Source: an uncultured Oscillospiraceae bacterium (GTDB lineage Bacteria; Bacillota; Clostridia; Oscillospirales; Oscillospiraceae). From it: a DNA stretch of 13,154 nucleotides. Below the pieces are notes generated by a model that saw nothing but the letters and a program-made list of their open reading frames with translations, was not told the DNA's origin and ran no database searches. Numbering within the stretch: position 1 is the stretch's first letter; each line of letters begins with the position of its first letter. This document shows, piece after piece, positions 1 to 13,154 of the stretch. The translations under genes and the position numbers were made by a program. Location of the stretch: assembly GCA_905233595.1 (NCBI GenBank), contig CAJOFI010000028.1, forward strand, positions 1 through 13,154, in the 5' to 3' direction.

Positions 1-321
1 CGTCAGCGCCCGCATATCGCGGGAGATGATGCCGCTGATGCGTTTGACCAAATCACGCTCCGGCTGCTTGCTTCCTTTCTGTTCCGGCACCGCGGAAAAA
101 TACTTCTCCGCCTTTGCCGCGGCGTCAGTGTATCCCTTCATCAGGGTTTCCAACCTCTGCGCATCCAGCAGCGGCGGGAAGCCCTGCCGGTTCAGCGCGT
201 TCAGTTCCTTCAGCTGGCTGTCCAGCGCGCGCATACTGGCAAGATACTCCTGAAACGCCGGATTGTCGGACTGCGTCTGAGAAAGCTGGCTGTAAAGTTC
301 GTTGTATTCGGTTCCTGGCAT
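1..321 (-). CDS. Partial paralog of the neighbouring kinase-like protein (N-terminal 107 aa)
   Basis: This reading frame is open from an ATG at 321 to the left window edge, so only the N-terminal 107 residues are visible. The start has a good ribosome binding site (AAGAGGTG, 5-6 nt upstream). The visible part is mostly helical and charged, with no signal peptide or membrane segment. It resembles the N-terminus of the gene at 363-2819: both have a LLD...LM/IM...Y-x-DAA-KA...Y pattern followed by R-x-SG-hh-x-x-DM-x-AL (here residues about 50-106; in the neighbour about 56-114). The 41-bp gap to the stop of the upstream gene and the lack of a visible terminator suggest one operon. If the similarity continues, a kinase-like domain should follow beyond the window. 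The function is unknown, and the paralogy is inferred by eye from the N-terminal region only. Confidence 0.8.
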   Translation of the reverse strand, partial: MPGTEYNELYSQLSQTQSDNPAFQEYLASMRALDSQLKELNALNRQGFPPLLDAQRLETLMKGYTDAAAKAEKYFSAVPEQKGSKQPERDLVKRISGIISRDMRALT

Positions 322-362: not shown

Positions 363-2819
363 TTATTTGACCGCCTGTGGCTTTTTTGGTGCCTGCTTGG
401 CGCCAGCCGCCAGCCGGTCGGCAAGCTGGGCGGCGGCGCGGTTGCACTCCTCCAGTCCCGCGCGCTCGTTGGCCTTAACCGTCTCAAACTCGTCCGGCGA
501 ACGGCGGCGCGCGTCGGCAACATAGGCGTTAAAGCTCCCCAGCTGCTTAGCCTGCTCCGTCTTGCCCGCCTGATCCAGCGCCTGCATATAATTCTCTGTC
601 GCCTCCTGCAGGGACAAGAGCTGCTTGTCCATCTGGTTGATGTCCCGCATCCCGATGCGGCTATCGAAGGCGAGCCGCATCTTTTCCTCAAGCCGCAGCT
701 CGATCTTGATGTCGTCCGCCGACTTCCCGTTCGCGTTTTTCAGCCGCTCGTTCGCGGCGGCGGTCAGTTCCTTCTCGTTCATCGGCTTCTGATTCAGCCG
801 CTCGTCCAGCTTCCGGTGGAACTCGGCATATTTGACCAGTTCCTCGCGGAACGCGCGCTGCGCGGTGAGCTCGGGCGCTTCGCCCTCTTTCGCGGGCAGC
901 AAGTCCTCCCCCTGCAGGAACGGCGCCGCCATGACTTTGAAGTTCATCTGGATGTCCTTCATGGCTGTACGGTCGGCGCGATCGGCGTGGGTAACGAGCT
1001 TCGCCGCCTTCGGCGCCGCGTTTTTCTGCTGTTGTCCCAGCTTCTTTGCTGCCTCCTGCTTCAGGACTTGAAGATGCTGCTCCGCGTAGGTGAACAGATT
1101 GGTCTGGCGCGGCTTGAACCACGGCTTGTAGTTGGTCTTGAGATCGCTGAGCTTCAGCTTCTGCCACTCATTGTCCTCCACGATGCGGATATAGCCGCGC
1201 TTGGTGGGCGTCGATTCGATGCGCTTGTTCGCAAAATACCGCTCACCCTTCGTGATGGCGCGCTTCATCAGCTCCAGCCGCTTGGCGGCGGCGTTCAGTT
1301 CCGACTCGTGTAGGCCGTACTGCCGCAGGGAGACCTTGAGCGTCTCCGCGTCCATCGCCTTGATCTTCTCCGCCATGCTGCGGCTCATCGCCTTCATGTA
1401 ATCGAGCCCCACCATGTGGTTGACCTTTCTCCCGTTGGCAGGCACAAGGTCGCCGAACGACGTATCATTGTCAAAGCCCTTGATGCCGAGCACCCGCGGC
1501 GGCCTGTCGTTGGACATCTGGAAGCTGAAATTGCCATCGTGGCGGTCGACGTTCCCGCAGAGAAAGTCCAGCGCCTGCAGATCGGCGATCTGCTTGAAGC
1601 AGCCCTTGCTGTTTTCCAGTGGGTCGTCCCTATCCAGCATGGCGCATTTCGGGTCGGGATCGTCGGGATCTTCGCCGCCGGCGTCCGCCATGAAGGTTCC
1701 CTCGACCAGCTTGCCCTCCTCATCCACGCAGCGCACCATCTGTGAGCGGCACAGCACGTTGGACACGCCCAGAAGCTCCGCCGTGGTGCTCATGGCGGCG
1801 TTGCGCTCGTCGATACGCGCATGGTTCTGCACACCGGCCATCTGATAGATCCCCGGCGTAACGTTTATGCTGGCGAGCGTTTTGCCGAAGGATTGCAGGA
1901 CGACTCCCTGGTGTTTTTTTAGCTCTCTCTCCTCCTCAGGGGACACCCCGCACTCCGTCAGCAGCTCGCTTATCAGCGCGTTTGGGTTGCCGTCGCCCAA
2001 TACCGCATGAGCAAACTCCGAAGTCAGGCTCTCGATAACCTCCGCTTTGTTCGAAGGATCGAGATTCGAGCGCCGCGCGTATACGCCCAGAAACCGATCG
2101 AGCACCGACCGCATGAGGTCGGCCTTTTCCCCCTGCGCGAGCGCCTTGACGCTTTCCAGCGCGGTGTCGTACGCCTTCACCATATCCGTTTCCAGATCGC
2201 TGCGCTTGGTCAGATAGCCCTTGACGGTTTTGCCCTCGCTGTCGACAAAGCTCAGCGGGATGCGCTGGGACAGCGCGCCGCCCTGACGCTGGATGGTGGT
2301 GTCCTTGAGGTTGATCGTGCGCATCCGAGCCATCTCCACCAGCGTCGGCAAGGAGCGCAGGGTCTTCTCCACCGGCACCTGTTTGGTGCGGACATGAACC
2401 TTGCCGTTCTTATCCTTTACGCGCTGCTTCACTTCTTTCACTTCAGCAGGCTTTTTCAGATACTGCTCGTACTGGCGCAGCGCGCTCATATCCTTCGCCA
2501 GAACGCCGGATACCTGCCGCAGGATGCCGGCGACCGGAGGCTCCGGCTCATCCGGCTGCCTCTGGGCGGCGATCTTCTCCAGATAGCTCTCGCCCGCCTT
2601 GGCGGCGTCCTGATAGAATTTCATGATCTCCGCCACCGCCGCCGTGTCCAGCAGCTTCACGCCTTCTCGCGTCATGCGGTAGTATTCGCTCATCTTCTGC
2701 TGGAGCGCGGCGATCTTCTCGCGGTAGGCGGCGTGCTCCTCGCGGAGCCCCTCCGCGACCTGCTGCTCCGCCAGTCGCCGATCCAGCTCCTCAAAAATAC
2801 TTCTCTCCTGATCTGACAT
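363..2819 (-). CDS. Large cytoplasmic protein with atypical kinase-like motifs (HipA/PI3K-PI4K-like)
   Basis: The protein has 818 aa, no signal peptide and no membrane segment; the start follows a GAGGAGGA ribosome binding site. Residues 1-125 are charged and helical. Residues about 165-210 (GGALSQRIPLSF ... GKTVKGYLTKR) look like a kinase N-lobe, with K205 as a possible ATP-contacting lysine. Residues about 340-382 (TTAELLGVSNVL ... EGTFMADAGG) would form the lobe connection. The clearest signal is NVDRHDGN at 423-430, with D425/R426/H427/N430, followed by GFDNDTSFG at 448-456, with D450/D452. This DRHxxN plus downstream Asp layout is the catalytic-loop and metal-binding pattern of PI3K/PI4K, actin-fragmin kinase and HipA-type kinases. 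Residues about 575-818 are charged, Ala/Lys/Glu-rich and probably coiled-coil. I do not recognise a named family. Kinase activity is inferred from the motifs; the substrate is unknown, and protein or small-molecule phosphorylation are both possible. A related gene follows downstream, and the XRE-receiver regulator is divergent upstream. Confidence 0.8.
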   Translation of the reverse strand: MSDQERSIFEELDRRLAEQQVAEGLREEHAAYREKIAALQQKMSEYYRMTREGVKLLDTAAVAEIMKFYQDAAKAGESYLEKIAAQRQPDEPEPPVAGILRQVSGVLAKDMSALRQYEQYLKKPAEVKEVKQRVKDKNGKVHVRTKQVPVEKTLRSLPTLVEMARMRTINLKDTTIQRQGGALSQRIPLSFVDSEGKTVKGYLTKRSDLETDMVKAYDTALESVKALAQGEKADLMRSVLDRFLGVYARRSNLDPSNKAEVIESLTSEFAHAVLGDGNPNALISELLTECGVSPEEERELKKHQGVVLQSFGKTLASINVTPGIYQMAGVQNHARIDERNAAMSTTAELLGVSNVLCRSQMVRCVDEEGKLVEGTFMADAGGEDPDDPDPKCAMLDRDDPLENSKGCFKQIADLQALDFLCGNVDRHDGNFSFQMSNDRPPRVLGIKGFDNDTSFGDLVPANGRKVNHMVGLDYMKAMSRSMAEKIKAMDAETLKVSLRQYGLHESELNAAAKRLELMKRAITKGERYFANKRIESTPTKRGYIRIVEDNEWQKLKLSDLKTNYKPWFKPRQTNLFTYAEQHLQVLKQEAAKKLGQQQKNAAPKAAKLVTHADRADRTAMKDIQMNFKVMAAPFLQGEDLLPAKEGEAPELTAQRAFREELVKYAEFHRKLDERLNQKPMNEKELTAAANERLKNANGKSADDIKIELRLEEKMRLAFDSRIGMRDINQMDKQLLSLQEATENYMQALDQAGKTEQAKQLGSFNAYVADARRRSPDEFETVKANERAGLEECNRAAAQLADRLAAGAKQAPKKPQAVK

Positions 2820-2968: not shown

Positions 2969-3574
2969 GTGCGTAACACAGATGAATTTGCGAGCGTGCT
3001 GAAAGAACTGCGCTCGAAAAAAGGCCTTTCCCAACAGCAGCTCGCAGAACAACTCAATGTCTCCCGCAGCGCCGTTTCCATGTGGGAGCTCGGCACGCGG
3101 CTGCCGGATATGAGGATGCTCGGTCGCCTCGCGGCATGCCTTGATGTGGATAGCCATATTCTGCTCGACGCCATACAAAGTGCGCCGGACGAGATCGTCA
3201 ACATCATCGTGGTGGAGGATATCCCCACCTTGCTGCAGGGCAGTATCGGCATGATCCAGAATATCGTACCGGAAGCGAGCATCGTCGGTTTTGAAAGCGG
3301 CACAGAGGCAATTGCCTACGCCCTCGCCAACCGCGTGTCCATTGCTTTTCTGGACATTGAGATCGACGAGGAGCTCAACGGATTGGAGCTGGCGCAGCGG
3401 CTGCTGGAGATCCACCCGCACACCAACATCATCTACCTCACAAACTACGTGGAATACATGAAGCAGGCGATCTACGACCATTGCAGCGGCTATATTCTCA
3501 AACCACTCAGTCGGGAGCGCGTCCGTCACGAGCTGATGAACCTGCGCTTCCCCGTAAGGGGGCTTGACCTATGA
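2969..3574 (+). CDS. XRE-family HTH fused to a response-regulator receiver domain
   Basis: The 201-aa cytoplasmic regulator starts at GTG with GGAGG 6 nt upstream. Residues about 7-61 form an XRE/Cro-type HTH (LRSKKGLSQQQLAEQLNVSR, then SAVSMWELGTRLPD). Residues about 78-195 form a receiver domain, with the acidic pair E83/D84, phosphoacceptor D129 in FLDIEID, T158 in YLTN, and K178-P179 in LKPL, so all key receiver residues are present. In most response regulators the receiver is N-terminal and the DNA-binding domain C-terminal; here the order is reversed. Phosphorylation by the kinase encoded next should switch DNA binding. The stop overlaps the next ATG (ATGA at 3571-3574), which indicates translational coupling. 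The divergent palindrome at 2880-2914 is the most likely binding site, and this is inference. Confidence 0.88.
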   Translation: MRNTDEFASVLKELRSKKGLSQQQLAEQLNVSRSAVSMWELGTRLPDMRMLGRLAACLDVDSHILLDAIQSAPDEIVNIIVVEDIPTLLQGSIGMIQNIVPEASIVGFESGTEAIAYALANRVSIAFLDIEIDEELNGLELAQRLLEIHPHTNIIYLTNYVEYMKQAIYDHCSGYILKPLSRERVRHELMNLRFPVRGLDL

Positions 3575-6072
3575 AAACGCGGATCGATCGACAGAGTGCC
3601 GTGGACCTTGCGGTGGCGTTGGTTTTTGCCGCCGTGGTCGCGCTCTCGGCATTCCTCTGGAACACCTCCGGCATGAAGGGTGTCGCGCCCGCGATCAGCC
3701 CGTTTCTCGTCATGCGCCCGCTGGAGATGCGCGAGGAGGTCATCGCGGATTACGCGGGCGTGCAGCGCGTCTACGAATTTGATCTCACGAAAGCATCGGG
3801 CGTTCGCGCCGGAACATTGTTCGTCCATCTGCGCCACACGATCGCGGTCGTGGAGAAGGACGGCAGCGTGGTTGCCGATACGGGCGAGACGCCCTCCTGG
3901 CACATCGGGCGCACGCCGGGCAACTACTGGCTGGCGCTGCCGATCTATCCCGAGGACGCGGGCAAGACGCTGCGCGTCACGCTCACGCCGGTTTATCAGA
4001 GCGTGCGCGCGCTTGAGCCGGACTTTCTCGTGATGGATCGCCAGATGCTGCTGCACCTCGAGGTGCTGCCCGACGAGGCGGCAATGCTGCTGCTCAGCTG
4101 CGTCACGGCGGCGATGGGCTTTTTCCTGATGCTGCTGGCGCTTTCACTGGGGCTGACGGCGCAGGATCGACGGCGGGTGTTCTATCTCGGCGCGTTCTCC
4201 TGCACGGCGGGCGTGTGGAAGCTGTGCGGGCTGTCCGTCGTGCCGCTGCTGCTGGATTGGTACGGGCGGCAAAAGCTGCTGTGGTACGTCGGCGCAACGG
4301 CTTATCTTCTGATGCTGGTGCTCTCGCTGCGGCTCCTGACGGTGATTCAGGATCGGGAGCACGATCGCCTCGGCAGGCTCTGCTGCTATTTCAGCGCATT
4401 TGCCACGCTGGTGCTTCTCACGCTGCAAGTGCTCGGCGCCGCGGAGCTGCACGACGCGCTGATCGCGTTCGGCATCGCCATGGCGGGGCTGCATCTCATC
4501 GCGCTGCTGGGGCAAAAGCCCGAGCGCGCGGCGCTTTTGTGGCTGCTGCCGACGTTCGCGGCGCTGGGGCTGGATCTCGTGTTCTTTTCCATTAAGGGCC
4601 AGTCGCCCATTGCGCCGGTGTTTCTCGCCTGGGTCGCGCTCAATCTGTTCGTGCGCGGCTTCGGCTTCCTGCGCGACGCCATCCGCCGCGAGCGGGAGCT
4701 GCGGGAAAAAGATGAGCAGCTGCGCGGCGCCAAAATGCAGAACCTCATCAACCAGATCCGCCCGCACTTCATCTACAACACGCTCGCCTCGGTCAGCATG
4801 CTCTGCGACAGCGACCTGCGCTTTCCCGACGCCGTGGACAGCGAGGGAAAGCGCCATCCGCTCACCAACGGCTCTTACGGCGTCATCCTGCAAAGCCCCG
4901 ACCGCGCCCTGCGCCGGGACGCCTTCGAGAAGGTCTACGCCCGCTATGACGAGATGAAGAACACCCTCGCCGCGATCCTCGACGCGCAGTTCAAGCAGAC
5001 GCTCTTCTTCGCCCAGGCGCGTGGCTACGCGAGCACGCTCGAGGCCGCGCTTGACCGCACCGAGGTGCCCACGCAGGTCTATACCCAGCTCATCGAGGCC
5101 GTGCACTTCAATCTCGACAAGCTGCACCGCTACGTCGCCCTGCGAAAGAAGCTGCTCGGGCTGGACGAGGTGCACATGTACGACGTGTACGCCCCCATCG
5201 TGCCGGACAGCGCGCGCAGGATCAGCTTTGACGAGGCTAAGGCCACCGTGCTCGAGGCGCTCGCGGTGCTCGGGGAGGACTACACGGCGCTGCTGCGCGA
5301 GGGCTTTGAGCAGCGCTGGATCGACGTCTATGAGAACGTGGGCAAGCGTGCCGGCGCCTATTCCACAGGCACCGCCCGCCCCCACCCCTACGTGCTCTTA
5401 AACCACAAGGACACGCTCAACTGCATGTTCACCCTCGCCCACGAGATGGGTCACGCCCTGCACAGCTACCACAGCTGCAAGCACCAGCCCGTCTGCACGA
5501 GCGATTACGTGATTTTCGTGGCGGAGGTCGCCTCCACCTGCAACGAGGTGCTGCTCATGCGCTATCTGCTCGGGAAGACCGCGGATCAGAAGGAGCGCGC
5601 CTCGCTCATCAACTACTTCCTCGAGCAGTTCAAGGGCACCGTCTACCGCCAGACCATGTTCGCGGAGTTTGAGCTGATGATGGGCAGGATGGCCGAAAAC
5701 GGCGAGACGCTGACCGCCGAGAGCCTGAGCGGGAAGTATCTCGCGCTCAACAGGCTCTACTACGGCGAGAACATGGTCTCCGATCCGCAGATCGCCCTCG
5801 AATGGTCGCGCATCCCGCACTTCTTCTATAATTATTACGTCTTCCAGTACGCGACGGGCTTCTCCGCCGCCGTCGCCATCGCAAACCGCATCCTCAGCGA
5901 GGGCGAAAGCGCCGTGCGCGATTACAAGCGCTTCCTCTCCGCCGGCAGCAGCGCAGACCCCATCACGCTGCTCAAGATCGCGGGCGTGGACATGTCCTCC
6001 CCCGAGCCGGTCAACTCCGCCCTCCGTCTCTTCGGCGAGCTGCTCGACGAGATCGAGCGCCTTGCGATTTAG
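3571..6072 (+). CDS. Chimeric ORF: 7TM LytS-like histidine kinase N-part fused in frame to oligoendopeptidase F C-part
   Basis: The 833-aa frame joins halves of two unrelated proteins. Residues 1-411 are a membrane sensor kinase: one TM at about 12-30, an extracytoplasmic domain at about 31-165, about seven TMs at 170-370 (7TMR-DISM-like), a short charged helix, then the His_kinase box NQIRPHFIYNTLASVSML with H399. A complete kinase would continue for about 100-200 residues through dimerisation and ATPase domains, and these are absent. From about residue 412 the sequence (SDLRFPDAVDSEGKRHPL ...) matches M3B oligoendopeptidase F from about its residue 185 to the end. It has zinc ligands H624/H628 in HEMGH, catalytic E625 and third ligand E652 in VAEVAS. 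The PepF N-terminal region is missing. The ATGA overlap with the XRE-receiver gene shows that the kinase part belongs to that operon. The junction (about 4798-4820) is probably an assembly chimera or a deletion fusion. Neither half is expected to work normally as drawn. Confidence 0.85.
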   Translation: MKTRIDRQSAVDLAVALVFAAVVALSAFLWNTSGMKGVAPAISPFLVMRPLEMREEVIADYAGVQRVYEFDLTKASGVRAGTLFVHLRHTIAVVEKDGSVVADTGETPSWHIGRTPGNYWLALPIYPEDAGKTLRVTLTPVYQSVRALEPDFLVMDRQMLLHLEVLPDEAAMLLLSCVTAAMGFFLMLLALSLGLTAQDRRRVFYLGAFSCTAGVWKLCGLSVVPLLLDWYGRQKLLWYVGATAYLLMLVLSLRLLTVIQDREHDRLGRLCCYFSAFATLVLLTLQVLGAAELHDALIAFGIAMAGLHLIALLGQKPERAALLWLLPTFAALGLDLVFFSIKGQSPIAPVFLAWVALNLFVRGFGFLRDAIRRERELREKDEQLRGAKMQNLINQIRPHFIYNTLASVSMLCDSDLRFPDAVDSEGKRHPLTNGSYGVILQSPDRALRRDAFEKVYARYDEMKNTLAAILDAQFKQTLFFAQARGYASTLEAALDRTEVPTQVYTQLIEAVHFNLDKLHRYVALRKKLLGLDEVHMYDVYAPIVPDSARRISFDEAKATVLEALAVLGEDYTALLREGFEQRWIDVYENVGKRAGAYSTGTARPHPYVLLNHKDTLNCMFTLAHEMGHALHSYHSCKHQPVCTSDYVIFVAEVASTCNEVLLMRYLLGKTADQKERASLINYFLEQFKGTVYRQTMFAEFELMMGRMAENGETLTAESLSGKYLALNRLYYGENMVSDPQIALEWSRIPHFFYNYYVFQYATGFSAAVAIANRILSEGESAVRDYKRFLSAGSSADPITLLKIAGVDMSSPEPVNSALRLFGELLDEIERLAI

Positions 6073-6418: not shown

Positions 6419-6494
6419 AGACGCAGATTCGCGCCGGGGCGCTCCACAGTGATCGTTGAAGGGATCGCCGGCGCAGGACAACGGAGGTAGGAAG

Positions 6495-7554
6495 ATGAGC
6501 TTTGCCGTTTTGACAGATACGTCGGGCAATCTATTGAACCGCGAGATCGCGGACTATAAGCTGCACGTGATCCCCTTTACCTATATTTATGACGGGCAGG
6601 AGCACACCTGCCTCGACACCGAGAGCTTCGACGCGGAGGATTTCTACGGGCGCATCAGGCGCGGCTTGCAGGTGAGCACCTCGCAGATCTCCCCCCAGCA
6701 GTATATGGACTTCTTCGAGCCTTACCTGCGCGAGGGGCAGGACGTGATCTACGTCGCCATGTCCTCGGGCATCTCCGGCTCCTGCAACTCCGCCCGCATC
6801 GGCGCGGAAATGCTGCGCGAGACCTACCCGGAGCGCACGGTCGCCGTCATCGACACGCGCGGCGCCGCCCTCGGCGAGGGCATCATCGCCCTGCTCGCCT
6901 GCGAGCTTCGCGACCGGGGGCTCGGCACGGCGGAGGCCGTCGCCATCCTCGAGGAGCATGTGGAGCGGATGTTCAACGTCTTCACCGTGGACGATCTGAT
7001 GCACCTGCGCCGGGGCGGGCGGCTGTCCAACCTCTCGGCAATCATGGGCACGGTGCTGAACATCAAGCCCCTGCTCAAGGGCAACGAGGAGGGCAAGATC
7101 GTCGCCTTCGGCAAGCTGCGCGGGCGCAAAAAGTCCGTGGAGGCGCTGGCCGCGATCTATGACAAGCTGGTCGTGAACCCGCTGCCGGGAGGACGCGGAC
7201 TATCTCGTGGAGCTTCTCAAGCGCAGGCGCCCGCCGAAGCGCATCCTGCTGGCCGATTACGAGCCCGTCACGGGCTGCCACGTCGGCCCCGGGGCGCTGG
7301 CGCTCTTCTTCGAGAGCGAGGAGGGCGTGCGCAGCTACGGCAACGAGGGCATCACCGGCGGGCTCAAGGAGGCCATGAAGGTGGGCGAGAACGCCCTCAA
7401 GGGCATCACCGGCACCGAGACCTTCAAGAAGACCAGCCGTCTCGTCAGCGAGAACGCGAAAAAGGCCGCCGAGACCGCAAAGCGCATGGGCGGCACCGCC
7501 GCCGCAACGCTGAGCGAAAAGCTCAAAGACCTCACCGGCCGGGACGGGAAGTAA
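6495..7554 (+). pseudogene. DegV family (fatty-acid-binding) protein, interrupted by a +1 frameshift
   Basis: The start is set at ATG 6495, with GGAGGT 6 nt upstream; it begins MSFAVLTDTSGNL, the usual DegV start, so an in-frame codon at 6456 is not used. DegV/FakB-type proteins bind a fatty acid and present it to a FakA-type kinase. Visible landmarks are D8-T9-S10, TSQISP at 62-67, SSGISGS at 90-96, HLRRGGRLS near 170-178, and a C-terminal CHVGPGALALFF. The frame breaks at GGG 7187-7189: removing one G gives VVNPLPEDADYLVELLKRR and continuity to the TAA at 7552-7554. The break may be a sequencing error, since both sides are well conserved. The joined protein would be about 352 aa, against about 280 for typical DegV. 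The excess is an Ala/Lys/Glu-rich helical tail of about 75 residues after the core. The gene appears monocistronic, ending in the hairpin at 7553-7599. Confidence 0.85.
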
Positions 7555-7599
7555 AAACCGTGGAAGCGAAAAACTTCGTTTTTCGCTTCCACGGTTTTT
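7553..7599. terminator. Bidirectional terminator between degV and the convergent lipoprotein gene
   Basis: The arms 7553-7574 and 7578-7599 are 22 nt each, exact reverse complements with a TTC loop, flanked by A5 and T6 runs. The degV stop codon lies in the base of the stem. It serves degV on the plus strand and can also stop the minus-strand ypeB-lipoprotein transcript. Confidence 0.9.
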
Positions 7600-7607
7600 T
7601 AGTTTTA

Positions 7608-7722
7608 GGAACTGTTCCGAAATAACTTGTGCAATCTGACTTGCCTTTTTCACCTGTAGCTTCGTTGTCAAATCTTGAAATACACAAAGTATTCCTGCGA
7701 TAATTTATTTCTGCACAGTTCC
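7608..7722. mobile_element. 115-bp MITE-like element with terminal inverted repeats and TTA flanks
   Basis: The left end GGAACTGTTCCGAAATAA (7608-7625) and the reverse complement of the right end (7705-7722) match at 16 of 18 positions. TTA occurs directly at both borders (7605-7607 and 7723-7725), consistent with a 3-bp target duplication. The interior is clearly AT-richer than the neighbouring genes and has no ORF of its own. This is the structure of a small non-autonomous transposable element or the joined ends of a deleted insertion sequence. The parent transposase family cannot be named from the ends alone. Confidence 0.6.
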
Positions 7723-8605: not shown

Positions 8606-9812
8606 TCACGCAAGGGCTATGCGAAATTGTCTGCCCGTCTCGGCGCTGACGTAGACGCTCACGTTCGCCCCTTCCCCGTCCTCGCAGAAAAAGGCGTAGC
8701 AGGGCACGTCGCGCAGTCCCTCGCTTTTGCAGATGAGTTTGCGCGTCTCGCGGACGCTCAGCCCCTCGGGCAGCGCCTGCCTTGCGCTCTCCTCGTCCAC
8801 GCTCCAGGAGACGGCGGCTTTCTCGCTGCAATAGTCCTCGGCGTTGTAGCTGTAGATCGAGCCGTCGTCGAGCGCGACGGCGAGCCTCACGCAGTTTTCC
8901 GGGCAGTCCGCCCCGTCCTGGCTTGCGCAGTAGCGCAGGGAGAGCACCGTGCCGCTGTTCTCCTCCCCGGCCGGGGAGAGCGCGTCGAAGCCCCGGGCGG
9001 CGAGAAAATCCTCCGCGATCTTGCGCGCCTCAGCCGGGTCGATGCGCGCTTCCTCCACAAGCCGGGACTGCGCCATGCTGTCCACCCCCGCGCGGCTGAC
9101 GCAGAGGAAGCAGTCCTCGTAGCGGTAGCAGCGGCGGCAGTCGTTGCCCTCGTAGCGGTAGAGCAGCGTCAGCTCCTCCGGCTGCGCGCCGACGAAGTCC
9201 GCCGCCTCGGCGAGCATCTCCTCCTCGGTCAGATAGCCCGCGCGGCTCTTCTTCTCGCAGCCGTAGCGCCCGTCGTAGGAGAATCGGCGCGTCCTCCACG
9301 TTCGGCAGGCGCTTTTCCCGCTCGTCAAAGCGCAGCTCCCCGGCGTTTACGTCCTCCTGCATCTCTCGCAGGGTGTCGGCAAAGTCCGCCGCCGCGAGGG
9401 AGAGCGCGCGCAGGTGCTCCAGCTCCTCCGCCGTGAAGCCCTCGCTCGCGGCCGTGGGGCAGAGGGAGATCGCGTAATCCCCCGCGACGTTCAGAAAGGC
9501 CGAGAGCTCCTCCAGCTCCTGCGTGGCGAAGGGCAGCGCCAGCATCGCGCCCTCGGCGGCGCTTGATTCGGCGTAGGCCTCGCCGCAGACGCGGGCGCAC
9601 ATCCCGCCGTCGGTGGCGTAGACGCTCTTGCCCAGCGCCTCGGAGAGCGCGTCCACCGCGCGCACGGTCTCCTCGAAGGCGCGCGCGGAGACGTGCAGCG
9701 CGTCCGCGCGGTGATAGGACAGCCCCGCGCTCTTCGCCGCGCCCCAGCCGCCCAGCGCCGCCACCGCCGCCAGCGCGTAGCTCGTGAGGACGATCTTGGT
9801 TTTTCGCTTCAT
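8606..9812 (-). pseudogene. ypeB: Spore germination protein YpeB, interrupted by a frameshift
   Basis: YpeB is a spore inner-membrane protein needed for localisation and stability of the cortex-lytic enzyme SleB. The start is ATG 9812 with AGAGGTG 5 nt upstream. The N-terminal part (about 175 aa) has a membrane anchor at about residues 7-24, then helical repeats with YpeB-like FATQELEELSAFLNVAGDYA. The C-terminal part (about 225 aa, other frame) starts at FSYDGRYG, as at the beginning of the YpeB PepSY region, and continues through EEEMLAEAADFVG, then RIDPAEARKIAEDFL, ending RQFRIALA. The two parts join with a +1 shift near 9283-9292 (minus-strand CGCCGATTC); removing one C gives DARFSYDGRYG. 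The joined length of about 400 aa is near the usual 450. The break may be a base-calling error, as both halves look intact. No sleB is adjacent: upstream is a divergent M3 peptidase gene, and downstream is a lipoprotein gene. Confidence 0.85.
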
Positions 9813-9819
9813 AAAAACA

Positions 9820-9850
9820 CCTCTTTGCGGATAGTATCTGCACAAAGAGG
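9820..9850. repeat. Inverted repeat overlapping the ypeB RBS
   Basis: CCTCTTTG (9820-9827) and CAAAGAGG (9843-9850) are exact reverse complements, and wobble pairs would extend the stem in a minus-strand RNA. One arm contains the ypeB ribosome binding site. If transcription starts upstream of the whole repeat, the hairpin could mask translation initiation. If it starts at the nearby sigma-G-like promoter, the outer arm is not transcribed and the repeat would act, if at all, as a DNA site. Confidence 0.45.
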
Positions 9851-11863: not shown

Positions 11864-11939
11864 AAGTATTCAGAGCGGAGGGCGCGTCGGACTGCGCGCC
11901 GCACCGCCCGAAAACGCCCGCCGGTCACGGAGGAGACCG

Positions 11940-12080
11940 GGAGCCGTTAGCGCCGGAGCCGTAATTGGCTGACGAGGATGGCAGTGATCGAAGCATTCGG
12001 CGGATGCTGCCACGGCTGGCGTGAGCCGTCAGGACGGGGGAAAAGAGCAGAATCAACACTGTAACAGAGCCCCGCCCGAC
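11940..12080 (+). ncRNA. glmS-type glucosamine-6-phosphate-activated self-cleaving ribozyme
   Basis: The leader contains the conserved glmS ribozyme blocks in order. These are TTAGCGCC (predicted cleavage between A11949 and G11950), GACGAGG (11971-11977), ATCGA (11987-11991) and ATTCGGCGGATG (11995-12006). Stems fit: AGCC/GGCT (11957-11960/11967-11970), TGGCAG/CTGCCA (11979-11984/12007-12012), ACGGCT/AGCCGT (12012-12017/12024-12029), and CGGGG/CCCCG (12035-12039/12070-12074). The class cleaves its own mRNA when GlcN6P binds and so lowers expression when amino sugar is plentiful. It normally precedes glmS; here it precedes a GlmU-like gene and nagB. The 3' boundary is approximate. Confidence 0.88.
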
Positions 12081-12117
12081 ACGCGATGCAGTCCAAACTC
12101 AACTTTGGAGGCAATTT

Positions 12118-12774
12118 ATGTATCGTATTGCGGATCTTTACGATCTGGAACACACGCTCGCGGCGGACTATCTGCGCGGCTTCACCTACCCCTGGGAGGC
12201 GCTCAAGGGCATCAAGGACATGATCCTCGCCCTCGGCCCCACGCTGGGGGAGGAGTACGAGGAAGTGAGCGAGCACGTCTGGGTGCACAAGACGGCGAAG
12301 GTCTTCCCCTCGGCCTATCTCGGCGCGCCCTGCATCATCGGCCCTGAGACCGAGGTGCGGCACTGCGCCTTCATCCGCGGCTCCGCCCTGGTGGGCGCAA
12401 ACTGCGTCGTGGGCAACAGTGTGGAGCTGAAAAACGTGATCCTCTTCGACCACGTGCAGACCCCGCACTATAACTACGTGGGCGACTCGATTCTCGGCTA
12501 TTACAGCCACATGGGCGCGGGCTCCATCACGTCCAACGTCAAGAGCGACAAGAAGCTCGTCGTCGTGCACAACGGCACCGAGCAGCTCGAGACCGGCCTC
12601 AAGAAGTTCGGCGCCATGCTGGGCGACTACGTCGAGGTCGGCTGCAACAGCGTCTGCAATCCCGGCACCGTCATCGGGCGGCACAGCAACGTCTACCCCA
12701 CCTCCTGCGTGCGCGGCGTCGTGCCGGAAAACAGCATCTACAAAAACAGCGGCGAGATCGTCGAGAAATTCTGA
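12118..12774 (+). CDS. GlmU-like left-handed beta-helix acyltransferase (acetyltransferase half only)
   Basis: The 218-aa cytoplasmic protein is preceded by GGAGG (12107-12111). From residue about 55 it consists of hexapeptide repeats of a left-handed beta-helix ([22 protein letters not shown], read as successive I/V-G turns). It contains [11 protein letters not shown] (117-127) and MGAGSITSN (132-140), which match the GlmU active-site region; H117 corresponds to the catalytic His of GlmU. The N-terminal uridylyltransferase domain of GlmU (about 230 aa, with its glycine-rich nucleotide-binding loop) is absent; only about 50 unrelated residues precede the helix. It may acetylate GlcN-1-P or another amino sugar, or act with a separate pyrophosphorylase. 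It is often named 'UDP-N-acetylglucosamine pyrophosphorylase' by similarity, but no nucleotidyl-transfer domain is present. It lies between the glmS ribozyme and nagB (29 bp gap), so it shares GlcN6P feedback control. Confidence 0.85.
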
Positions 12775-12803
12775 TAGTCTATCTTGAAAAGGAGAAAATT
12801 ACC

Positions 12804-13154
12804 ATGCGTGTTGTGATTCAGGACAATTACGATAAAATGTGCAAATGGGCGGCGGACTACATCGCCGCGAAGATCAACGCCCACAAGGAAGAGCGCCCCT
12901 TCGTGCTGGGTCTGCCCACCGGCTCCAGCCCCATCGGCGTTTACAAGGAGCTTGTGCGCATGAACAAGGCGGGCGAAGTCAGCTTCAAGAACGTCGTCAC
13001 CTTCAACATGGACGAGTACCTCGGCCTGCCCCACGAGCATGACCAGAGCTACTGGTACTTCATGCACGACAACCTCTTCGACCACCTGGTCGATATGAAG
13101 CCGGAGAACATCAACATCCTAAACGGCATGACCGACGATCTCGAGGGCCAGTGC
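12804..13154 (+). CDS. nagB: Glucosamine-6-phosphate deaminase NagB (partial, N-terminal 117 aa)
   Basis: The frame starts at ATG 12804 after AAAAGGAG and is open to the right window edge. The visible 117 residues follow NagB of E. coli closely: [20 protein letters not shown] (31-50), [18 protein letters not shown] (59-76), then the substrate-loop [13 protein letters not shown] and ENINILNG. D70 in the NMDEY motif corresponds to the catalytic Asp72 of E. coli NagB. The enzyme interconverts glucosamine-6-P and fructose-6-P plus ammonia. It is the second gene behind a GlcN6P-activated ribozyme. A gene repressed by its own degradation substrate fits poorly with a catabolic role, so the reverse, biosynthetic reaction is suggested. 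The remaining active-site residues (His and Glu further on) are outside the window. Confidence 0.93.

Follow-up and report, generated by a model that had tools for sequence, protein, structure and literature searches.

What does a glmS ribozyme do in front of nagB? In textbooks the glmS ribozyme stands for one RNA acting on one gene, and it is being explored as a target for antibacterial drugs. In the stretch analysed here (the window, comprising all 13,154 nucleotides of contig CAJOFI010000028.1, called C28 below, from the uncultured Oscillospiraceae bacterium GCA_905233595.1) a ribozyme of this class is followed by genes for a stand-alone beta-helix acetyltransferase (LbH) and for NagB instead of glmS. 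We consider it quite probable that it heads an operon for synthesis of UDP-N-acetylglucosamine (UDP-GlcNAc) which is repressed by its end product, and in which NagB would aminate fructose-6-phosphate with ammonia, GlmS being present in addition under a control of its own. The features of the locus are as follows.

11938..12086, + strand: self-cleaving ribozyme of the glmS class (RF00234) within the 5' leader of the LbH-nagB(-glmM) transcript, from the Rfam match (59.8 bits), a custom covariance model and covariation
11949..11950, + strand: predicted cleavage site A(-1)/G(+1) of the AGCGCC motif, from alignment to the Rfam consensus
12107..12111, + strand: GGAGG, putative ribosome-binding site of the LbH gene, from reading of the sequence
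12118..12774, + strand: LbH, a 218-amino-acid stand-alone GlmU-type acetyltransferase, predicted glucosamine-1-phosphate (GlcN-1-P) N-acetyltransferase, from the C-terminal half of TIGR03992 and the ST0452 structures
12790..12794, + strand: AGGAG, putative ribosome-binding site of nagB, from reading of the sequence
12804..13154, + strand: the first 117 codons of nagB, which is cut off where the contig ends, from TIGR00502 (167.6 bits over 1-118 of 259)

The Rfam match covers the full length of the glmS model (1-167 of 167) with an E-value of 6e-12, the gathering score being 37 bits. It is the only Rfam match above threshold in the window and the only RF00234 match in the genome. A sequence-only reading of the window had placed a glmS ribozyme directly upstream of LbH and nagB, and the Rfam model agrees, with the cleavage-site nucleotides in place. 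The gap between the ribozyme and the LbH start is 31 nucleotides. The coordinates given in that reading were right, while the truncation of nagB at position 13154, where C28 ends, had gone unmentioned. A genome-wide search for glmM located this gene (550.2 bits) at the end of another contig, C18. The end of C18 encodes NagB residues 213-262 (the last 50), 92% identical to the NagB of the same-genus genome G041, and then glmM, the nagB stop and the glmM start overlapping as TAATG. The two contigs are unjoined, and the simplest reading is that the order in this genome is ribozyme-LbH-nagB-glmM, as in the close relatives L038 and L039.

For the RNA itself, a custom covariance model was built from 24 ribozymes (17 from the genus and 7 of the 12 other loci L008-L019). 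It scores the window ribozyme, which is among its training sequences, at 143.1 bits. We then aligned 80 operon ribozymes (alignment A3), leaving out L150, L087 and L089, where the match is cut or split, and L038, L039, L043 and L050, which are the same loci as same-genus rows. The alignment is fitted to the model and somewhat favours the structure; in it 98.5% of the base-pair cells hold standard pairs, 16 of 28 pairs are changed on both sides (4-7 in slid controls) and 249 cells are compensatory (8-39 in slid controls). The core motifs are nearly invariant: AGCGCC occurs in 79 of the 80, GACGAGG in all 80 and TCGGCGGAT in 72, and the window has all three. We infer that the operon ribozyme would cleave itself in dependence on glucosamine-6-phosphate (GlcN6P).

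The gene arrangement is conserved well beyond this genome, as the sequence-only reading had proposed to examine in related genomes. A search of a named genome collection with LbH gave at least 587 loci, the best 80 of which were analysed, ribozymes being called with the custom model. A ribozyme is present at 61 of the 80; nagB accompanies it at all 61 and glmM at 58, the three loci without glmM being L037 and L075 (truncated contigs) and L077. Gene order varies. Most frequent is ribozyme-nagB-LbH-glmM (43 of 61, three of them with glmS further downstream), followed by ribozyme-LbH-nagB-glmM (14, with glmS upstream of the ribozyme in three and downstream in one); the minor orders are ribozyme-LbH-nagB (2), ribozyme-nagB-LbH (1) and ribozyme-LbH-glmM-nagB (1). 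The first gene behind the ribozyme is nagB at 44 of these 61 named loci and glmS at none.

Within the genus, RF00234 matches were found in 25 of 73 genomes, two of them under the gathering score, and the next gene was nagB or LbH-nagB in 25 of 25. The custom model added G045, where the ribozyme is cut by the contig end and followed by LbH-nagB-glmM. According to a tblastn gene map of the resulting 26 genomes (the window's genome being counted from its own gene map and the link to C18), LbH and/or glmM are adjacent in 17, for example both at G004 and G021; nagB stands alone in 8, and in G035 the contig ends with nagB. In the eight genomes G027, G034, G037, G049, G054, G061, G066 and G069, nagB is the sole pathway gene found behind the ribozyme in the fetched stretch. 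These cases show that nagB itself is the target of the ribozyme.

The class-wide picture is different. RF00234 matched in 107 of 291 sampled genomes of the class, and for 105 newly examined matches we recorded the first of five reference proteins encoded on the sense strand within about 1.5-2.6 kb downstream. This was GlmS, which makes GlcN6P from fructose-6-phosphate and is the usual partner of the ribozyme, in 101 cases (99 called by script, L280 and L284 by eye as the ribozyme lies near the contig start; G000, G084 and G089 are outside the 105), NagB in two, and none in two (G204, G339). Both nagB cases lie outside the window's family. One is G423, with the order ribozyme-nagB-LbH-glmM. The other is G303 (L379), a weak match (30.1 bits) without AGCGCC, where the nagB match extends over 111 residues only; by eye, this nagB seems to be interrupted after about 111 residues by a 591-amino-acid transposase-like frame, and joint decay of ribozyme and nagB is possible. 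Outside the family but within the order, glmS follows the ribozyme (L008-L015, L017-L019, G112, G116), with G089 as an exception. The order LbH-glmM-ribozyme-glmS in G112 suggests how nagB could have replaced glmS behind the ribozyme. In G089 (L016), an intact-looking ribozyme (1501-1667, 78.2 bits) has no sense gene behind it in the fetched stretch; judged by eye, the sequence downstream holds an inverted repeat rich in GC and a convergent gene, and glmS is on another contig of that genome.

The enzymes encoded behind the ribozyme fit a biosynthetic pathway. LbH had been described as an acetyltransferase-only relative of GlmU, and profile searches agree with this: the match to TIGR03992 is confined to positions 215-393, the acetyltransferase half (139.6 bits; full-length cut-off 292.1), and that to TIGR01173 (bifunctional GlmU) to profile positions 302-433, the N-terminal uridylyltransferase domain being absent from the 218-amino-acid protein. 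LbH also matches the Sulfolobus ST0452 structures 2ggo and 5z09 at E-values around 1e-21 and aligns to the C-terminal acetyltransferase domain, as in ST0452 and bacterial GlmU. Most of the residues expected of a GlcN-1-P acetyltransferase are kept: H117, Y120, N140 and K146 align with H308, Y311, N331 and K337 of ST0452, which together with K340 we take to be its acetyltransferase residues. Unlike these enzymes, LbH has no nucleotidyltransferase half, and the lysine corresponding to K340 is replaced by V149. No bifunctional GlmU above the TIGR01173 cut-off was found in the 73 same-genus genomes searched. The four GlmM copies tested exceed the TIGR01455 equivalog cut-off of 447.55 (532.7, 536.2, 541.3 and 550.2 bits).

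The NagB of the window is a truncated copy of 117 amino acids, and its 167.6 bits against TIGR00502 stand against a cut-off of 236.9 meant for full-length proteins; full-length relatives pass it, for example L040 with 377.8 bits. Like the hexameric NagB of E. coli, the G041 protein keeps D72, D141, H143 and E148, which we take, in E. coli numbering, to be the catalytic residues. D72 lies inside the window part (FNMDEY), whereas D141, H143 and E148 fall past the contig end; the NagB of L089 has an arginine at H143. Positions 158 and 160 are glycine and arginine in 115 of 116 NagBs (52 were flagged for an inexact search motif and read by eye), where the E. coli type presumably has the arginine and lysine that contact N-acetylglucosamine-6-phosphate (GlcNAc6P). 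The exchange is consistent with a lost activation by GlcNAc6P, but unspecific. The operon enzymes further differ from E. coli NagB in that their genes cluster with glmM and LbH, not nagA, behind a switch that GlcN6P would turn off. At the operon loci nagB has LbH and glmM beside it, and no nagA was found there; the window's genome carries pieces of nagA on contig C172, and nagB on C28.

A second NagB-like protein of about 230 amino acids occurs in the window's genome on contig C11 (L225:3879-4574) and also at L226, L227, L229-L231, L234, L235, L240, L243 and L244. Ten of the 19 NagB-like loci inspected have the order nagB2-glmM-LbH, with GlmM about 65% and LbH about 70% identical to the operon copies. 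The paralogue has alanine or threonine at the position of D72 and mostly asparagine at that of D141. It is probably not a deaminase; it may be a sensor, or an enzyme with a different specificity.

The following mechanism is proposed. NagB would convert fructose-6-phosphate and free ammonia to GlcN6P, GlmM would turn GlcN6P into GlcN-1-P, and LbH would acetylate the latter to N-acetylglucosamine-1-phosphate. Plentiful GlcN6P would serve as the cofactor for self-cleavage of the ribozyme in the leader, after which the cleaved mRNA with its 5'-hydroxyl end would be degraded, RNase J being the probable nuclease, and the amounts of the encoded enzymes would fall. In most operon genomes GlmS, encoded elsewhere and without a detectable ribozyme where checked, would provide the glutamine-dependent route to GlcN6P, and ribozyme control would thus act on the ammonia route and, at most loci, on two downstream steps. 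A gene of the RNase J type is present in the window's genome (TIGR00649, 624.1 bits), this being the family which we take to degrade cleaved glmS mRNA. In B. subtilis, according to PMC6171935, GlcN6P triggers cleavage and lowers glmS expression, and mutation of the ribozyme raises the mRNA level more than 50-fold. With this sign of the switch, every enzyme of the operon would fall at high GlcN6P. A catabolic NagB under such control would be switched off exactly when its substrate is high, so that the sign is wrong for catabolism. Since GlmM and LbH draw on GlcN6P, the loop is coherent only if the operon also encodes an enzyme that supplies GlcN6P, and NagB alone qualifies. With a consuming NagB the loop would amplify an excess of GlcN6P and worsen a shortage; with a producing NagB it would be ordinary end-product repression. 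Gene content, the sign of the switch and the genomes with nagB alone behind the ribozyme thus lend good support to a biosynthetic NagB, whose direction in vivo we infer from them.

Several observations weigh against this proposal. GlmS is found above the profile cut-off in 44 of the 50 named operon genomes searched (50 out of 61), so that NagB is dispensable there for GlcN6P synthesis. Loss of the allosteric site had been considered as a marker of an anabolic NagB and was ruled out: the arginine is also lost in the related ribozyme-free NagBs L117-L120 and thus is no mark of a biosynthetic enzyme. No ribozyme was detected at 19 of the 80 named LbH loci, 13 of which still have nagB and 15 glmM in the stretch, nor in 13 of the 39 genomes of the genus that carry nagB of this type (at least 345 bits); among these 13 nagB is alone in ten and beside glmM in three (G025, where the contig end cuts the upstream side, G050 and G053). 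In addition, nagA is found above the cut-off in 55 of 73 same-genus genomes, and the 19 further NagB-like loci encode proteins without D72 or E148. As nagA is common and the other NagB-like proteins are altered in this way, the ribozyme-linked NagB, perhaps the sole catalytically intact NagB in several genomes, may also serve catabolism of N-acetylglucosamine. The biochemical precedent is also unfavourable: PMC5902328 reports that the NagB of Akkermansia aminates only under non-physiological, saturating conditions, with a Michaelis constant for ammonium of 41 mM, and that this bacterium needs added N-acetylglucosamine.

The sequence-only reading went further and had NagB perhaps replacing GlmS outright. 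This suits the genomes in which GlmS stays below the cut-off, namely 6 of the 50 named operon genomes and 7 of the 26 same-genus ribozyme-nagB genomes (G034, G035, G037, G041, G045, G049 and G062, with G034 94% and G045 92% complete), and also five relatives of 95-99% completeness (G074, G087, G090, G092, G001) which have a high-scoring nagB of the same type, no GlmS above the cut-off and no Rfam ribozyme, and which are candidates for NagB acting alone or for dependence on amino sugars. It is nevertheless quite unlikely as a general account, since GlmS is above the cut-off in 18 of the 26 same-genus genomes as well as in the 44 named ones, 57 of 58 inspected glmS loci read MCGIVG...LAKSVTVE, and the window's genome itself, the one remaining of the 26, has a C-terminal piece of glmS at the edge of a contig, matching the intact GlmS of congeners with 100% identity over 158 residues. 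A tie between missing GlmS and this NagB type was also looked for among 65 genomes of at least 90% completeness and at most 5% contamination; judged by counts, nagB (345 bits or more) is present in 7 of 18 genomes without and 11 of 47 with GlmS, no clear excess. Nor does GlmS appear to carry the switch itself. No ribozyme was detected at 30 glmS loci of operon genomes with the custom model (no match with an E-value below 0.4; four of the loci have less than 1.5 kb upstream), at 20 of these with Rfam, or with Rfam at 20 same-genus glmS loci, nine of them from ribozyme-nagB genomes. A ribozyme-bearing glmS together with catabolic genes beside nagB would have spoken against rewiring of the pathway; the glmS loci checked have no detectable ribozyme, and the neighbours found for nagB are anabolic. 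A different objection is that NagB, which is usually catabolic, remains a deaminase, the ribozyme having come along by rearrangement or tuning GlmM and LbH with NagB as a relief valve. The presence of nagA elsewhere in most genomes of the genus would agree with this, and so would the Akkermansia enzyme, which deaminates under physiological conditions (PMC5902328). We hold it to be unlikely, because high GlcN6P would then switch off every operon enzyme that removes GlcN6P. A passenger would also hardly be the first gene behind the ribozyme at 44 of 61 loci and the only pathway gene in eight same-genus genomes; nagB is downstream of glmM at one locus only (L115), and the cassette is kept as a unit in mostly unrelated surroundings.

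Two other explanations concern the RNA and the assembly. The ribozyme could be a relic, decayed or re-tuned, and have lost its response to GlcN6P. Its Rfam scores, 40.7-69.6 bits in the 14 sampled named loci (all over the gathering threshold) and 59.8 in the window, are below those of many glmS-linked ribozymes of the class, which reach up to 122.8, with the same-genus matches G044 (36.3) and G067 (35.9) just under the threshold; L090 moreover lacks AGCGCC. Six same-genus ribozymes, including G044 and G067, have a long insert in a peripheral stem which may lower some of these scores, and the near-invariant core motifs together with the many compensatory changes make decay very unlikely. That an assembly or binning error joined a glmS ribozyme to unrelated genes is hardly conceivable. 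The genome (1.73 Mb in 264 contigs, 85.35% complete, 6.09% contaminated) might invite the thought, and other genes of the contig look frame-shifted or fused, but the recurrence of the junction at 61 of the 80 named loci refutes it; these include two records, Ruminococcaceae bacteria YRB3002 (L040) and P7 (L067), which name a strain and not a metagenome-assembled genome.

How the operon came to be so widespread can be approached through sequence identities. Among 30 genomes the median pairwise identity is 90.1% for NagB, 88.9% for LbH and 51.7% for GlmS, and 87.4% for GlmM in 26 of them (four loci failed the length filter), with the reservation that the 80 loci were picked by LbH similarity, which biases the identities of LbH and the cassette upward. 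The flanks are mostly unrelated: among the 276 pairs formed by 24 loci with long flanks, 266 have no homologous open reading frame of 150 amino acids or more in common in these flanks. Because the cassette is about 90% identical where GlmS is about 51%, and because of these flanks, horizontal sharing is likely though not proven; it was judged from the identity of GlmS and a comparison of flanks, and exchange of GlmS itself may also have occurred. We lean towards the view that a horizontally shared cassette of glmS ribozyme, nagB, stand-alone GlmU-type acetyltransferase and glmM provides many gut and rumen Clostridia with a second way into UDP-GlcNAc synthesis, fed by ammonia and repressed by GlcN6P, beside GlmS.

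Both the RNA class and the enzymes are familiar; what appears to be new is their pairing in regulation and the operon. The nearest known arrangement is the cdaA-cdaR-glmM-glmS region of B. subtilis, which, according to PMC6171935, shares the RNA class, the predicted cleavage site, the pathway node and a nearby glmM. There the ribozyme acts on glmS and glmM lies upstream in the operon, whereas here the ribozyme precedes nagB or LbH, glmM is downstream at most loci, and glmS lies at another place or next to the cassette, not immediately after the ribozyme. GlmS differs from NagB in being unrelated and in using glutamine. Reverse action of NagB has reportedly been seen before, by Vogler et al. 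in 1989, in E. coli mutants forming GlcN6P from fructose-6-phosphate and ammonium; that was a bypass in mutants, in contrast to the natural, feedback-regulated operon proposed here. The 2011 survey of McCown and colleagues is said to have placed all but two of 463 glmS ribozymes in glmS mRNAs. No earlier report of a link between glmS ribozyme and nagB was found among the open-access papers searched, by title and start of abstract, the McCown surveys of 2011 and 2012 being outside that scope and possibly mentioning exceptions. In the nagB passages of PMC10668854, PMC7967978 and PMC12168751, the gene appears in its usual catabolic role or in a reference only.

If the proposal is true, this would be a naturally evolved case of glmS-ribozyme control over an unrelated enzyme that makes the same product, and of a NagB dedicated to synthesis. 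Dozens of glmS ribozymes on the operon of another enzyme would show that the switch follows the metabolite and not the gene. The direction of NagB becomes testable, since a switch turned off by GlcN6P predicts a NagB that produces this compound. The proposal also predicts direct use of ammonia for cell-wall sugars in ammonia-rich guts, and that GlcN6P-mimicking drugs against the ribozyme would hit different enzymes in operon-bearing bacteria.

Elsewhere in the window, an 833-amino-acid frame at 3571-6072 (+) joins two parts: one has a truncated histidine-kinase domain, with 27 residues matched, and the other is an oligoendopeptidase F whose first 144 profile positions are missing. This may reflect a deletion fusion or a misassembly. 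According to the list of open reading frames, read by eye, a DegV protein (6456-7625, +) and a YpeB-like germination protein (8606-9845, -) each seem to be split across frames, which suggests base-level errors of the contig or pseudogenes. An 818-amino-acid protein at 363-2819 (-) gives no Pfam or NCBIfam match at an E-value of 0.001 and has a GNVDRHDGN stretch reminiscent of kinase-like folds; by eye, the frame at 1-321 (-) resembles its N-terminus.

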